From Nitrosotalea devaniterrae (GTDB lineage Archaea; Thermoproteota; Nitrososphaeria; Nitrososphaerales; Nitrosopumilaceae): a stretch of DNA of 64,000 nucleotides. Below the pieces are notes generated by a model. It made no database searches and was not told where the DNA came from. It saw only the letters and a list, made by a program, of their open reading frames with translations. Positions 48,581 to 54,435 of this stretch are shown here, piece by piece. Numbering within the stretch: the stretch's first letter is position 1; each line of letters begins with the position of its first letter. Where the stretch lies: NCBI GenBank assembly GCA_900065925.1, contig LN890280.1:1480451-1544450 (forward strand). Direction: 5' to 3'. A program made the translations under genes and the position numbers.

Positions 48581-50086
48581 TTACTCTGCAAATCCAGAGT
48601 ATGCTCTTTCGCCTACTTGAGATATGTCCAATCCTATTTCTTCTTCTTTTGGTGTTACTCTGACACCACCTGGCCAAATTGCATCTTGGATTCTCCAAAT
48701 GATGTAAGTTAGGCCAAATGACCAAGCTGCACCGAATCCTGCTCCCATGCTGTTAATTACAAACTGCATTGGGTTTCCAAAGAAGAGACCATTGTGGCCA
48801 TATGGATTGATTCTGACTTCACTGAATGCACCTGTAAGCAATGCACCTACAACACCGCCCATTCCGTGTACACCCCAAGTATCCAGAGCATCATCTATTC
48901 TTGCCCTGTTCTTGATCAGTACACAGTAGAAGCATATTGTTGCACATGCAAATCCTACTATTATTGATGCCCACGTTCCAATGAAACCAGAGGCTGGCGT
49001 AATTGCTACTAGTCCAGCAACAGCTCCGTTGACTGCACCGATGGCGCTAGTCTTTCCTGTATGTGCCCAACTTAGGAACATCCACCATATTGCTGCAACC
49101 GCAGTTGCAATGTTGGTGTTCTGGAATGCTTGTGTTTCAAGGAAACCAGCAAATCCTGCACTACCAGGGTTGAAACCAAACCATCCGAACCAAAGTAATG
49201 ATGCACCCAAAATTATGAGCGGAATTGAGTGTGGTTCAAATGGTGCTTTACCATATCCTATTCTCCTTCCCAAGAACATTGCGGTAGCTAAACCAGCAAA
49301 TCCTGAGGTGATGTGAATGACTGTTCCTCCCGCAAAGTCTTCTGCACCCATCTTGGCTAACCAACCAAGTGACGTACCTTGACTTCCGAAAGACCAGTTG
49401 GCATGTCCCGCAACATCATAGATGAATGTAGTCCACAATACAATGTGTATCAAGAATGCACTCATCTTTACTCTGTCAGCATAACCAGCAATGGCTAGTG
49501 ATGGAGTAATAGCAGCGAACATGAGCTGGAACATCACATAGGCTAAGTGAGGAATAGTTGGAGCGTATACATCGGCTGGTGCGTTGTGCGATACATTATT
49601 CAAGCCTACCCAGTCAAGGTTTCCAATAAATCCAACAGGATCAGCAGATGGACCAAACATTATCGAGTATCCAAAGATAACCCATTGGACACTGACAATT
49701 GCATAGACCATGAATGCTTGTAACATTACGGTTAGAGAGTGTTTTCTTCTTGTAAGACCTCCATACAAGAATCCCACACCACCAGGAGTCATTATCATGA
49801 CGAAGACTGCTGCTGCGTACATGAAGGTTGTATCTCCTGTGTCTATACATGGGGCATTACTTCCACCGAATGTTCCGTTACCTGGTGGAGTCATCGGCTG
49901 AGCACAGTGAATCTCATTTGTCTTGCTAGGATCTGCTAGATTTCCTAACGGACCAAACTGAGCGTGTGCATCTTGTATTGCCGTGAATCCAGATAACCCG
50001 ACTATTAAGCCTGCGAGCACAAAAACTACCGGCCATTTGTGTTTTGTTACTATCTGCATTGGCGATTTAGAAATTGTCTCCAGCAT
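48581..50086 (-). CDS. amt: Ammonium transporter (Amt)
   Basis: This Amt/Rh channel has 501 residues from ATG 50086 (MLETISKS). The longer frame to 50122 is rejected because those bases form the TATA box (see the repeat feature). A signal-like N-terminus (VVFVLAGLIVGLSGF with AHAQ) precedes eleven membrane helices. The twin-histidine pore residues are in GGTVIHITSGFAG and WGVHGMGGVVG. FLYGGLTRRKHSL and LWFGWFGFNPGSAG are family marks. The C-terminal tail ends GERAYSGFAE. It supplies the AMO pathway or biosynthesis with ammonium. Confidence 0.96.
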   Translation of the reverse strand: MLETISKSPMQIVTKHKWPVVFVLAGLIVGLSGFTAIQDAHAQFGPLGNLADPSKTNEIHCAQPMTPPGNGTFGGSNAPCIDTGDTTFMYAAAVFVMIMTPGGVGFLYGGLTRRKHSLTVMLQAFMVYAIVSVQWVIFGYSIMFGPSADPVGFIGNLDWVGLNNVSHNAPADVYAPTIPHLAYVMFQLMFAAITPSLAIAGYADRVKMSAFLIHIVLWTTFIYDVAGHANWSFGSQGTSLGWLAKMGAEDFAGGTVIHITSGFAGLATAMFLGRRIGYGKAPFEPHSIPLIILGASLLWFGWFGFNPGSAGFAGFLETQAFQNTNIATAVAAIWWMFLSWAHTGKTSAIGAVNGAVAGLVAITPASGFIGTWASIIVGFACATICFYCVLIKNRARIDDALDTWGVHGMGGVVGALLTGAFSEVRINPYGHNGLFFGNPMQFVINSMGAGFGAAWSFGLTYIIWRIQDAIWPGGVRVTPKEEEIGLDISQVGERAYSGFAE

Positions 50087-50106
50087 CTTTCGATAGAGAT
50101 GTTTCG

Positions 50107-50155
50107 CATCTATAAAAGGCATTTTATCCTAAAATATTTTTTTTATGATATTATC
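50107..50155 (-). promoter_or_regulatory. amt promoter, copy A of a 49-bp repeated promoter
   Basis: On the minus strand TTTTAGGATAAAAT is followed by the TATA region CCTTTTATAGATG. It is about 90% identical (44 of 49) to 52616-52664. The TATA block ends 33 bp before ATG 50086. Confidence 0.8.
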
Positions 50156-50249
50156 AATGTTGAAGATCTAATTTTGTAGAATTTTAGTATCATAGAATTT
50201 GAAAAAATTCTAAATAAAATTATTATACAACTTACAGACTAGAGCACGC

Positions 50250-50417
50250 ATGACTGAAGCAGGAATAGAAATTTTCATTGCAACAGGAGTAACTCTTGCA
50301 ATGACAATAGCAATTTACTTCGGTGAAAGAGCTCACAGGTATAATTTAGCCAAGAAAGGAAAAACTTGGGGAACCTATGGCTTTAGGTATGAAGGCACCG
50401 GTCACGAACACGCCTAG
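50250..50417 (+). CDS. Single-span membrane protein (55 aa)
   Basis: ATG 50250 opens 55 codons to TAG. One hydrophobic helix (IEIFIATGVTLAMTIAIYFG) is followed by a basic-aromatic tail (AHRYNLAKKGKTWGTYGFRYEG). It is divergent from amt and 164 bp away. It might be a conserved accessory membrane peptide; no family name is secure. Confidence 0.6.
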   Translation: MTEAGIEIFIATGVTLAMTIAIYFGERAHRYNLAKKGKTWGTYGFRYEGTGHEHA

Positions 50418-50497
50418 AGTAAATCCCTTTACCACATTTTTGTAATTTTGTCAACGATTAGATAGATCGATTTATTCACAGAAGATGCTGACAAATA

Positions 50498-50989
50498 ATG
50501 AGAGAGAATCTGGAAGAAGACGAGCATATCATAGCATCAATTCCGCAGATTTGGGGAATAGCGTTAGGGTTCGGAGGATTTTTCCATAAAAATAAAGAAG
50601 GTATTCTCATCCTTACAAACAAGAATGTAATTTTTGTTCCACGCTACATATGGATCACTGCAAAAGAAAAGGAGAGATATTTCGCAGGTGACAAGGCTGG
50701 AATAGAAAGAATGTCAAATTACAATGAATCAGATCTGGATGAAGATTTGACTGAGAACCCAAAATCATGGATAATGCCTCTAAATTCCATAACAGATGTC
50801 AGAAGTATAACAACAAGAAAGGTAGATTTTCTCAGGATTACATTTACAGAAAAAGCAAAAGAGAAAAAATATGATTTTGGAATTACCAAAACAGTAACAA
50901 ATTACCCATATCGACAGCCTCTGGTTTTTAAAAATTTAGACTGGAGTTTGTGGATAGGTCTGATAGTATCAAAACTAAAAAAATCATAG
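50498..50989 (+). CDS. PH/GRAM-like domain protein (163 aa)
   Basis: The first 60 residues (EDEHIIASIPQIWGIALGFGGFFHKNKEGILILTNKNVIFVP) and the later SWIMPLNSITDVRSI and LRITFTEKAKEKKYDFGI read like a PH-like beta barrel of the GRAM/bPH type. There is no membrane helix. The function is unknown; such domains often bind lipids or other proteins. Confidence 0.6.
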   Translation: MRENLEEDEHIIASIPQIWGIALGFGGFFHKNKEGILILTNKNVIFVPRYIWITAKEKERYFAGDKAGIERMSNYNESDLDEDLTENPKSWIMPLNSITDVRSITTRKVDFLRITFTEKAKEKKYDFGITKTVTNYPYRQPLVFKNLDWSLWIGLIVSKLKKS

Positions 50990-50998
50990 ATTATAGCA

Positions 50999-51469
50999 CT
51001 AACTACTGCCTTTAGAAGATAGTTTTTCTCGTGCCTGAGAAATAATAAAATCATCATCAGTATCTTGTGCTTTTAAGAATTTCAAATCAATTACCTTCTT
51101 TTTAAATTTGAATATTTCAAGTTCATATTTTTCATTCTTAGGTGTATAGTTTGCAAGTTGTAATGACGCAGACCCATTGTATTCTTCCATAAACTGTTGA
51201 TAGTGATCAGATATTTTTAGTGATTTTAAAAAAACATTTGCTGTCTGTAATATGCGAGATTGACAATACAGAACGAATTCATAGTTAGTATCTCCCTCAA
51301 AGAATCTCATTTTGATCTCATCATCTGGCCAGTATTTTATTACCTGATTCCAGGCATTTACAAGTTTTTTTTTATTATCAAATATTAGGTAGACAGTAGG
51401 ACGTACATCAAATACATGATATCCCAGACCTAGAAAATCTTCAAACCAGTCTATTTTAGAATCAGTCAT
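50999..51469 (-). CDS. Hypothetical protein (156 aa)
   Basis: ATG 51469 (MTDSKIDWFEDFLG) is preferred over an upstream in-frame extension to 51526. It is a soluble alpha/beta protein with VFDVRPTVYLIFDNKKKLVNAW and a beta stretch LQLANYTPKNEKYELEIF. No family is recognised. It converges with the PH-like gene, 9 bp apart. Confidence 0.55.
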   Translation of the reverse strand: MTDSKIDWFEDFLGLGYHVFDVRPTVYLIFDNKKKLVNAWNQVIKYWPDDEIKMRFFEGDTNYEFVLYCQSRILQTANVFLKSLKISDHYQQFMEEYNGSASLQLANYTPKNEKYELEIFKFKKKVIDLKFLKAQDTDDDFIISQAREKLSSKGSS

Positions 51470-51540
51470 GTTCAATTCCAAGTATGTATTGTATTTAATG
51501 ATTAGAATAAGGAAAAGGGTTTTCAATAAGAAAAGTTAAG

Positions 51541-51792
51541 ATGTCAAATAGTTCAGAATATTTTGAATTACATATGGGAACTAGAAAGCGAATTGGCGAG
51601 ATAATGAAGATGAATAAAGAAGAATTATACCAATATCTCAGACAGGAAGACAGTTCCATCCAATCAACAGATAAAATAGAAATGAGACCTTTTGAACATG
51701 GCATCAAGATTTTTTATTTCCATAAAGATTCAGAAACACCCTATAAAACACGTGTATATCTGAATCCAGATGAATCTGAATCGTTAAAATAA
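51541..51792 (+). CDS. Hypothetical protein (83 aa)
   Basis: No family is recognised. It starts at ATG 51541 and runs through a helical half (TRKRIGEIMKMNKEELYQYLRQED) into beta strands (IEMRPFEHGIKIFYFHKD, TRVYLNPDES). It is divergent from the 156-aa gene and convergent with the Cas4-like gene. Confidence 0.5.
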   Translation: MSNSSEYFELHMGTRKRIGEIMKMNKEELYQYLRQEDSSIQSTDKIEMRPFEHGIKIFYFHKDSETPYKTRVYLNPDESESLK

Positions 51793-51845
51793 ATAAAATT
51801 AGTTTTAGGTAAAAATTATAAAATTAAAATGAAAAAAGTGTGTAA

Positions 51846-52595
51846 TTATAGGAAGGGTTTTGATTTGAGTTCACGCCACTTGCCACGAGCCCAGAATCCC
51901 CATTTCTGTTTGTCTTCATTTGCATAGTAACATTTCTCATTGTGAGGACATTCCATGCATTTTTCAGACGGTTCGATTGCTGGAGCAATGTTGTTTGTCA
52001 GCAAGGTATTGAGAATTTTAGCTCTACGTTTTGTTTCGTTTAGGAGCCTCTCACTCTTTGGAACATTGAATTCCATTTCGTTTCCTTCTCTATCAAAGTA
52101 GACAATCACTCCTTCAGGTTTGTCAAACATAAACAGATAGGAGTTCAGGTGTATGAAATCTGCCGGATATGGCATTTCAGGTAATTTTTCTGAACTTCTA
52201 AAGAGCATCACTACTTCATCTTCAACTCTGTCAGCTCTACCGACAATCTTTACGTTAGAACCTGCATCAAGTTGACCATCAATGGGTTTTTCCATGATGC
52301 TAAATGCGCTCTTTTGCATTATCTTTGACACCATCTGCTTGTGATTGCTTTCAGACGGATCCTTTCGATCAAGGTATGCGTTTCTTAAACATCCACTTAC
52401 CTCATCTACTGTGATCTTACCTTCGTCAGCTACTTGTGGATTAATTGCTGCAAAGACTTGCTCAATTACATCGTAAACATCTACTCGTGGTGGTGCATCA
52501 GTTGCTGCACGATAGTTTTCAATTCCTTCCTTAATTTTGTCTTGAACTTTTCCAACGATTTTTGCTTTTTTGTAGCTAGCTTTGGATTCTGTCAT
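51846..52595 (-). CDS. Cas4/RecB-like protein with degenerate nuclease site
   Basis: This 249-residue protein has the Cas4 layout: N-terminal cysteine C69 (SGCLRNAY), a PD-(D/E)XK core with D122 (VGRADRVED), and a C-terminal Fe-S triplet C213, C216, C222 (CMECPHNEKC). Where an E-x-K strand should follow D122, the sequence reads LFR (131-133), and the QxxxY helix reads HLNSY. The 4Fe-4S ligands are kept but the catalytic residues are lost, so it may bind DNA ends without cutting, or act as a structural or regulatory protein. Its promoter is a near copy of the amt promoter. No cas genes or repeats are nearby. Confidence 0.75.
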   Translation of the reverse strand: MTESKASYKKAKIVGKVQDKIKEGIENYRAATDAPPRVDVYDVIEQVFAAINPQVADEGKITVDEVSGCLRNAYLDRKDPSESNHKQMVSKIMQKSAFSIMEKPIDGQLDAGSNVKIVGRADRVEDEVVMLFRSSEKLPEMPYPADFIHLNSYLFMFDKPEGVIVYFDREGNEMEFNVPKSERLLNETKRRAKILNTLLTNNIAPAIEPSEKCMECPHNEKCYYANEDKQKWGFWARGKWRELKSKPFL

Positions 52596-52615
52596 TCTTT
52601 TGAAGAGTGGGATTT

Positions 52616-52664
52616 CATCTATAAAAGGTATTTTATCCTAAAACAATCTTTTTATGATATTATT
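52616..52664 (-). promoter_or_regulatory. Cas4-like gene promoter, copy B of the 49-bp repeated promoter
   Basis: It matches 50107-50155 at 44 of 49 bases, including CCTTTTATAGATG. The TATA block ends 33 bp before ATG 52595, the same spacing as in amt. It lies in the 131-bp region shared with the divergent P-II gene. Confidence 0.8.
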
Positions 52665-52726: not shown

Positions 52727-53074
52727 ATGACCCTTAAAAAAATAGAGGCAATATTTCCAAAAGAAAAATTGGATGCGGTCTTCAATGCTCTGACACAGCT
52801 TGACATAAGCGGATTTACGTACATGGATGTCAAGGGCAGAGGTGCCAGACCAAGAGAAATGGTTTCATCAGGCAGAGGAGGACGAATTGAAGCTACACAC
52901 AATCAGAATGCACTCATCTATGTAGTTGTCACTGAGAGTCAGTTATCGAAAGTAATAGACGCAATAACTACTCATGCAGGTACAGGTGCAGCAGGAGAAG
53001 GAAAGATCTTCATCTACAACCTTGATGATGCTGTAGACATAGGAACCAAAAAACGCGGCGATTCCTCACTCTAA
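52727..53074 (+). CDS. Nitrogen regulatory protein P-II (GlnB/GlnK-like)
   Basis: This 115-residue P-II trimer subunit has the N-terminal strand KKIEAIFPKEKLDAVFNAL, the T-loop region RGARPREMVSSGRGG (no tyrosine at the usual uridylylation position), LIYVVVTESQLSKVIDAI and the ATP/2-oxoglutarate site TGAAGEGKIFIYNLDDAVDIGTKKRG. It senses ATP/ADP and 2-oxoglutarate. Amt is 2.6 kb away and is a likely partner. It is divergent from the Cas4-like gene. Confidence 0.92.
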   Translation: MTLKKIEAIFPKEKLDAVFNALTQLDISGFTYMDVKGRGARPREMVSSGRGGRIEATHNQNALIYVVVTESQLSKVIDAITTHAGTGAAGEGKIFIYNLDDAVDIGTKKRGDSSL

Positions 53075-53759: not shown

Positions 53760-54041
53760 TTACCAGTATTTACCGTTGTCTGGTATCAGACCAATGCCTT
53801 CTCTTTCAAAGTGCTTGTTGAGTTCTGCGACCCATCTTTCTCTTGTGTCGCCACCAAGACCGTGCACTCTGAGCCAGAATGCAATTACTCCGAGAAGGAA
53901 TACTGTGAACATGATGGTTGCGAATATGTAGACCATCACATCATAGAATAGCGGGTCATAGTTTGGACCTATTTGACCTGCAAAGTTTGACAGCATACCT
54001 ACGAGCATAGTGAATATCGTGCTCATCATAATTCCAAACAA
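53760..54041 (-). CDS. Small membrane protein, candidate AmoY
   Basis: This 93-residue protein has helices FGIMMSTIFTMLVGMLSNF and FYDVMVYIFATIMFTVFLLGVIAFWLRV and a hydrophilic end with RERWVAELNKHFEREGIGLIPDNGKYW. It follows the 99-aa signal-peptide protein by about 94 bp. Two extra AMO subunits, AmoY and AmoZ, have been reported as adjacent small membrane proteins near amo in thaumarchaea. The size, pairing and neighbourhood fit, but this is an inference from layout and memory. Confidence 0.5.
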   Translation of the reverse strand: MFGIMMSTIFTMLVGMLSNFAGQIGPNYDPLFYDVMVYIFATIMFTVFLLGVIAFWLRVHGLGGDTRERWVAELNKHFEREGIGLIPDNGKYW

Positions 54042-54135
54042 TTTAGGTGCGATATATACATTTCTGTAAGAGACCCGGTCAAGATGAAAAATAGAGATCT
54101 GACTGGAGATTAATAAAATAAGAAAAAGAGAAGAA

Positions 54136-54435
54136 CTAGGCTCTCTTTGCTTTTTCCGCTTGCTTTGCTTTTACAACAAATGCAATGAAGATTCCACCGA
54201 ATATTCCACCTGAGATGATCGATGCACCGACTACACCGCTTGCATCAAGATATGGAGTACCTGAACCTGCGTGCGGATTATTTTGTACTGCCTGTACTTT
54301 GGCTTTTGCTAATGCCAATTCCTGTTCGAGCCCAAGACCACCACCTGGTGTGTACTGAGCTGCAGCAAATGGAGCAAATGTAGATGCTACAAATACAGCC
54401 AACAGTGCAGTTCCAACAATTATTGGTGTTTTCAT
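54136..54435 (-). CDS. Small exported membrane protein, candidate AmoZ
   Basis: This 99-residue protein has a signal peptide (TPIIVGTALLAVFVASTFAP, cleavage near AAAQ), a helix with LEQELALAKAKVQAVQNNPHAG and one transmembrane helix (VGASIISGGIFGGIFIAFVV) ending in a basic tail. It sits upstream of the 93-aa membrane protein on the same strand. It is proposed as AmoZ for the same reason as its neighbour; which of the two would be Y or Z is not certain. Confidence 0.5.
   Translation of the reverse strand: MKTPIIVGTALLAVFVASTFAPFAAAQYTPGGGLGLEQELALAKAKVQAVQNNPHAGSGTPYLDASGVVGASIISGGIFGGIFIAFVVKAKQAEKAKRA

Follow-up and report, generated by a model that had tools for sequence, protein, structure and literature searches.

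In the window analysed here (a stretch of 64,000 nucleotides from Nitrosotalea devaniterrae), a single dedicated promoter, present in two copies, probably drives both the ammonium transporter gene amt and the gene for a Cas4-like protein, which would be a catalytically dead partner of a particular Amt subtype. We assign this reading a probability of about 0.8. Shared transcriptional control of the two genes, already proposed in an initial annotation of this DNA, is well supported by the promoter sequences. The same composite promoter precedes these two genes only, its spacing is fixed, it recurs across genera and in two families, and its copies homogenise.

Both genes are on the minus strand. 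The amt gene (48581-50086) encodes an ammonium transporter of 501 aa (PF00909, E 1.3e-106) and starts at 50086, not at 50122. The Cas4-like gene (51846-52595) encodes a long pseudo-nuclease of 249 aa. Divergent from amt is a 55-aa ORF (50250-50417, plus strand), which is conserved in the cluster with synteny in 3 families, and divergent from the Cas4-like gene is a P-II protein gene (52727-53074, plus strand; PF00543, E 4e-20), so that each promoter faces a small gene, as had been annotated. The same divergent arrangement of P-II and the Cas4-like gene is seen in those Nitrosotalea, TA_9-type and g5 loci whose sequence includes this position. The region upstream of P-II is different, and no copy of the promoter element was seen there by eye. 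Three further genes were found in the cluster. One encodes a 163-aa protein (50498-50989, plus strand), of which a subtype with at least 43% identity accompanies the module, while distant paralogues of about 30% identity are found elsewhere. A 157-aa protein (50999-51469, minus strand) is conserved in the cluster. The 83-aa protein X (51541-51792, plus strand) co-occurs with the long Cas4-like gene; its predicted structure is alpha-alpha-beta-beta-beta, and it has no match worth naming in Pfam, NCBIfam or the PDB. No HTH gene adjoining the amt/Cas4-like pair was identified.

The distribution of these genes was followed in 151 sampled genomes of the order, representing 48 genera. The Amt subtype of the window is confined to 10 of them at 74% identity or more, the next proteins reaching at most 58%. 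All 10 are among the 11 genomes that carry the long Cas4-like gene, and the two genes are adjacent; in the eleventh, where no Amt of this subtype was found, the contig is cut. The P values obtained for this co-occurrence take no account of how closely the genomes are related. Protein X is present in most genomes that have both. The amt and Cas4-like genes probably belong to one ammonium-uptake module, and since matched promoter copies have been kept in front of both over evolution, their proteins are probably made together.

The label "Cas4-like" holds for the fold but not for the active site. An AlphaFold model of moderate quality (pLDDT 71) has as its best PDB match the RecB-like Cas4 protein SSO0001 (4ic1; E 1.4e-9, TM up to 0.67 of the target), and a sequence profile gives the same match (E 9.9e-10). 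Scores against the family models are below their cut-offs (20.8 bits against 65 for TIGR00372, 13.5 against 22.7 for Pfam Cas_Cas4). Four cysteines (C69, C213, C216 and C222) are invariant in 30 of 30 relatives, and on this basis the protein presumably binds an Fe-S cluster. An active solo-Cas4 nuclease, acting in repair or defence and merely co-expressed with amt, would be compatible with the fold, with Asp122, kept in 29 of the 30 relatives, with the QhXXY motif retained in several long relatives, and with the roles suggested for solo-Cas4 proteins (PMC5704561). However, the catalytic motifs II and III of a Cas4 nuclease (D ... E-x-K) are incomplete: the motif III Glu, on which Pcal_0546 and SSO1391 depend to bind metal and to be active (PMC4176176), is found in none of the 30 relatives, and the motif Lys is present in 4 and replaced in 26. 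Because the Glu is missing throughout, the protein is probably not a nuclease. Furthermore, the genome's cas1 homologues (at 771869 and 1124703) are more than 400 kb from the locus at about 1.53 Mb, with no cas1/cas2 association, and the gene co-occurs with one Amt subtype and not with cas genes. A nuclease or CRISPR role therefore seems unlikely from sequence, and we regard the active-enzyme explanation as doubtful. A viral origin of the gene was rejected, as no relatives were found among 2.9 million viral contigs. Our literature search found no expression paper for the long Cas4-like gene.

The promoter similarity noticed in the initial annotation is real. Positions 50107-50155 and 52616-52664 are identical at 44 of 49 positions without gaps, and the next best match to either copy, on both strands of the whole window, reaches at most 31 of 49. 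The pair is the top long direct repeat of the window (family D2, 92% over 48 nt). When the actual compositions are taken into account, 44 or more identities in 49 are expected with a probability of about 5e-15 per comparison, or about 2e-5 over all window pairs. In pattern searches, on which our genome-wide statements are based, TTTTAGGATAAAAT occurs exactly twice in the 1.805 Mb genome. Chance or generic A/T-rich promoter similarity was rejected on the basis of these match statistics, the rarity of TTTTAGGATAAAAT and the exclusivity of the composite promoter described below.

The layout relative to the ATG is identical in both promoters. Element A (TAATATCATAAAA; 50141-50153 for amt and 52650-52662 for the Cas4-like gene, minus strand) places TATCATAAAA at -64 to -55, which is 34 bp before TTTATA. 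Element B, TTTTAGGATAAAAT, is at -48 to -35 (50121-50134 and 52630-52643), and the TATA region CCTTTTATA is at -33 to -25 (50119-50111 and 52628-52620). The latter block had been described as ending 33 bp from the ATG, which is wrong, as it starts there. TTTATA is at -30 or -29 in the paired promoters, and this position is kept across the Nitrosotalea-type and g5-type promoters, with one or two at -31. A TATA box at a constant distance of about 25-30 bp before the start codon is the geometry of leaderless transcripts. Since CCTTTTATA starts at -33, leaderless amt and Cas4-like mRNAs are predicted, with 5' ends at the ATG or no more than 1-2 nt away from it. The longer amt frame does begin inside the promoter, as had been proposed: its in-frame ATG (50122-50120, minus strand) is upstream of the TATA box and presumably unused, and it is missing in the relatives that read AAAATACC instead of AAAATGCC (the ATACC relatives).

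We searched the 151 genomes for the composite pattern TATCATAAAA-N9-TANGATAAAAT-N4-TTTATA, allowing up to 3 mismatches. Five genomes have two matches each, always at amt and the Cas4-like gene. No other match was found in these five, none in the remaining 146, and none with the reversed pattern used as control. The composite is also absent from amt2 and amt3, the two other amt genes of this genome. The similarity is thus present in relatives, as shared regulation would require, but is not general in Nitrosopumilales, being found only where the long Cas4-like gene coexists with this Amt subtype. Of 46 promoters from two families, 44 have a spacing of 34 bp between TATCAY and the TATA box, as do 2 of 3 Nitrosocaldaceae amt promoters. 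In Nitrosotalea, A, B and TATA are kept in both genes of every species, while the spacer and the leader have diverged between the copies. We place no weight on a permutation test that set a genome's own amt promoter against foreign ones, as phylogeny confounds it. Weighing against the shared promoter, the Nitrososphaeraceae apart from L061 have A and TATA at both genes but do not share B, and in L066 the two genes have no promoter features in common. One element at fixed spacing before both genes, conserved across species, is the pattern of a co-regulated pair. When element A by itself was sought in the genome, using a pattern that was slightly off, the matches lay mostly within coding regions, so we claim no wider regulon.

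Part of the similarity is explained by copying. The two copies are identical over 74 nt in L062 and G043 and over at least 80 nt in L061, including the start codon and first codons, and identity that spans leader and codons is in part due to copying, not selection. On the cas4 tree, L062 and G043 nest within a clade that retains a divergent cas4 promoter; their identity is derived, a gene-conversion-like event. The copies are also close together, 2.5-3.4 kb apart in Nitrosotalea and g5, and facing each other in L061. A neutral duplication, in which a promoter segment was copied between nearby genes and gene conversion alone explains the identity with no functional co-regulation, would account for these facts. 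Yet all Nitrosotalea species retain A, B and TATA although spacer and leader diverged, and the 34-bp spacing is held in 44 promoters of the 46, which points to selection. We consider a purely neutral origin unlikely.

It is very improbable that the copies mark the termini of a mobile element, or that they are sites of site-specific recombination on either side of the genes between them. They are direct repeats around a gene block in Nitrosotalea and g5, but in L061 they are inverted, lie only about 240 bp from each other and have the flanking genes elsewhere. A TATA box at a fixed distance from the start codon closes every copy, the viral contigs hold no relatives, and no genome with precise excision of the block was seen. 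An ordinary strong archaeal promoter, with similarity due to a BRE/TATA consensus common to many genes, is equally improbable: the TATA element does sit where archaeal promoters canonically have it, and all copies are A/T-rich, but the two occurrences of TTTTAGGATAAAAT, the restriction of the composite to two genes per genome and its absence from amt2 and amt3 stand against it.

Under the dedicated-promoter reading, element A (TANTATCAYAAAA) would be a putative upstream regulator site, exactly 34 bp from the TATA box (TTTATA), and element B, which is A/T-rich, lies in between. Most likely the promoter was originally that of amt and the Cas4-like gene acquired a copy of it, since the A-34-TATA layout is seen at the amt loci of Nitrosocaldaceae, whose Cas4-like genes have no such promoter. 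Its lack there also indicates that gene linkage is older than promoter sharing. The copies would have been kept by selection and occasionally homogenised by gene conversion. Given dedicated copies at both genes, one common trans-acting factor probably controls how much of each protein is made, most likely in step with ammonium supply. The dead, presumably Fe-S-binding Cas4-fold protein may be a partner of the Amt subtype and work as either a nucleic-acid-binding regulator or an Fe-S sensor. More speculatively, it may itself be an Fe-S regulator, responsive to redox state or ammonium, that binds the DNA of element A and acts on amt and its own gene as repressor or activator, forming a self-contained uptake-control module in ammonia-oxidising archaea with this Amt subtype and the 83-aa protein; we offer this only tentatively.

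A 2023 review (PMC10432482, Table 2) counts ammonium sensing in ammonia oxidisers, and the split of ammonium between energy and biomass, among the open questions. Our literature search found no described regulator of archaeal amt in this group. The host Nitrosotalea is an acid-soil ammonia oxidiser. The promoter pair offers a concrete candidate operator with a set of two target genes, together with a module partner usable as bait. In addition, one Cas4 branch has apparently given up catalysis and become attached to nutrient transport, which contrasts with the family survey in which the catalytic motifs are conserved and all Cas4 proteins look active (PMC5704561).

Several known systems resemble this one. 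The protein shares the RecB-like fold and four-cysteine module of the Cas4 family (DUF83 / COG1468), in particular of the solo-Cas4 branch with SSO0001, and, like these, is encoded outside cas loci. It differs in the loss of the motif III Glu, in having a further conserved region at the N-terminus as well as a C-terminal tail, and in its link to the Amt subtype. The TTV1 nucleocapsid protein is also an inactivated Cas4-like protein (PMC5704561) that lost catalysis and took another role, but it is a viral capsid protein, whereas the present family is chromosomal. Nitrosopumilaceae have a short Cas4-like protein (about 215 aa) of the same fold family, which likewise has no Glu and is encoded some 3 kb away from an Amt gene. 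This short form lies behind another gene without an amt-type promoter copy, is about 30% identical to the long form and lacks its N-terminal region. Finally, the amt-glnK pairs of bacteria and archaea likewise have a P-II gene near an Amt gene, but here it is the Cas4-like gene that has the amt promoter, while the region upstream of P-II is a different one.

The amt gene (window 48581-50086, minus strand, 501 aa) and the long-form Cas4-like gene (window 51846-52595, minus strand, 249 aa) are preceded by near-identical promoters, as the initial annotation claimed. The two 49-mers (window 50107-50155 and 52616-52664) agree without gaps at 44 positions, and the runner-up match to either of them, on both strands of the 64 kb, reaches 31/49. 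The pair is the top long direct repeat of the window. Given the real base compositions, such agreement has a chance of ~5e-15 per comparison and ~2e-5 across all window pairs. CCTTTTATA, described earlier as ending 33 bp from the ATG, in fact starts there and spans -33 to -25 in both genes. The longer amt frame does begin within the promoter; its ATG precedes the TATA box and has been lost from relatives, so 50086 is taken as the amt start. From a TATA box at -31 to -25, archaeal RNA polymerase is expected to begin transcription right at the ATG, and both mRNAs are therefore predicted to be leaderless.

Three elements are kept in both promoters: element A (TANTATCAYAAAA), element B and the TATA box. 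Element B reads TTTTAGGATAAAAT in Nitrosotalea and TTCTAGGATAAAAT, TTTTATGATAAAAT or a similar sequence in other genomes; TTTTAGGATAAAAT has exactly two occurrences in the whole genome (1.805 Mb) of this Candidatus Nitrosotalea. The composite was searched, with up to 3 mismatches, in 151 sampled genomes from 48 genera of the order. Five genomes (three Nitrosotalea, one of genus g5 and one Nitrososphaeraceae MAG) carry it, each with exactly two copies, which always precede amt and the Cas4-like gene; no other site in the 151 genomes matched, and a reversed control pattern gave no match. All 37 promoters tested from Nitrosopumilaceae have a TATCAY-to-TTTA distance of 34 bp, as do 7/9 from Nitrososphaeraceae and, within Nitrosocaldaceae, 2/3 amt promoters but none of 4 cas4-like promoters. 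The simplest history would be an old amt promoter copied onto the Cas4-like gene once Nitrosocaldaceae had split off.

Leaders and spacers differ between the two Nitrosotalea copies, and nearly all copies keep gene-specific differences (ATGCC for amt versus ATACC for cas4-like). Since A, B and the TATA box stay constant while these differences persist, the sequences indicate purifying selection on the shared site in this genus. Other lineages have homogenised copies. In locus L062 and genome G043 the copies are identical over 74 nt, start codon and next codons included; in L061 identity likewise runs into the coding region and covers at least 80 nt, although these perfect inverted copies come from a metagenome assembly and are provisional. 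The Cas4-like coding-sequence tree nests L062/G043 inside the clade of L059, L060 and L063, with 0.94 support for the node that leaves out L063. In those three the cas4-like gene has another type of promoter (ACGATAAAACACC), which makes the amt-identical promoter of L062/G043 a derived state, the outcome expected if gene conversion ran from amt to cas4-like.

The window's Amt subtype (at least 74% identity) is present in 10/151 genomes; the next Amt stands clearly apart, at 58%. The long Cas4-like protein occurs in the same 10 and in G039, a genome whose contig ends beside the gene. Protein X (83 aa, window 51541-51792, plus strand) belongs to no known family, has a predicted alpha-alpha-beta-beta-beta structure and gave no convincing match in a fold search. 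It is almost confined to genomes with the long Cas4-like gene, 10 of its 11 genomes having that protein. The overlap statistics are extreme, but they ignore phylogeny, and the set covers three families. Module genes adjoin in almost all loci covering the spot, accompanied by homologues of 163-aa, 157-aa, 55-aa and 69-aa proteins. P-II (window 52727-53074, plus strand) diverges from an adjoining Cas4-like gene only in Nitrosotalea, TA_9-type and g5 loci. The Nitrosotalea genome has four clear P-II genes, besides a weak domain match (25.7 bits) within a 439-aa open frame (G000:C1:846626-846922, region L156). Beside P-II lie two small conserved genes (window 53760-54435, minus strand), which are probably amoY/amoZ because the amoYZ cluster lies 11-12 genes away from amoABCX in Nitrosotalea (PMC10030591); if so, the amt/Cas4-like block would sit between the two amo clusters.

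Coincidental expression of the two genes is unlikely, because the Amt subtype was never found without the Cas4-like protein. The interpretation proposed initially is partly supported: a shared promoter with co-regulation is very likely, given that the same composite precedes only these genes in five genomes. One factor would bind element A ahead of both genes and set joint transcription. Ammonium would be the likely signal, since a review describes amt of ammonia-oxidising archaea as changing its expression with the concentration of ammonia (PMC10432482). Many other Nitrosopumilaceae Amt genes, of a ~54% identical type (loci L083-L117), have a conserved palindrome (TGATANTATCA, or its half TANTATCA) that resembles element A but differs in its spacing to the TATA box; it keeps a fixed distance of ~92-95 bp from the ATG. 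Some match is present in 26/39 sampled Amt upstream regions versus 3.4 expected, in a sample of related genomes where some loci count one gene twice. As a lead, element A may be this module's version of an amt regulator site in wider use among these archaea.

The Cas4-like protein would be an Amt partner, either a regulator that binds nucleic acids or an Fe-S sensor, and may itself be a candidate for the element A-binding factor. It scores under the curated Cas4 cut-offs and has the Cas4 fold (4ic1, E 1.4e-9; model pLDDT 71; profile of 30 relatives, E 9.9e-10). The genome's two cas1 homologues (G000:C1:771869 and 1124703) are more than 400 kb away, and no viral relatives were found in the collection searched. 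A second, short Cas4-like protein (~215 aa) also lacks the catalytic Glu; in Nitrosopumilaceae regions L103-L117 its gene and a different Amt gene lie ~3 kb apart, and in L111 the intervening genes resemble ATP synthase subunits. The metal ligands of SSO0001 include Asp99 and Glu113, and two Cas4 proteins lose almost all nuclease activity when alanine is put into motif II, III or QhXXY (PMC4176176). In the alignment of the 30 relatives to SSO0001 the four cysteines are invariant, the Asp is retained in 29, the Lys position holds Lys in 4 and the Glu position holds Glu in none. According to the conclusion of a survey of the family, every Cas4 protein appears to be active (PMC5704561); the branch described here departs from this, having lost the catalytic Glu.
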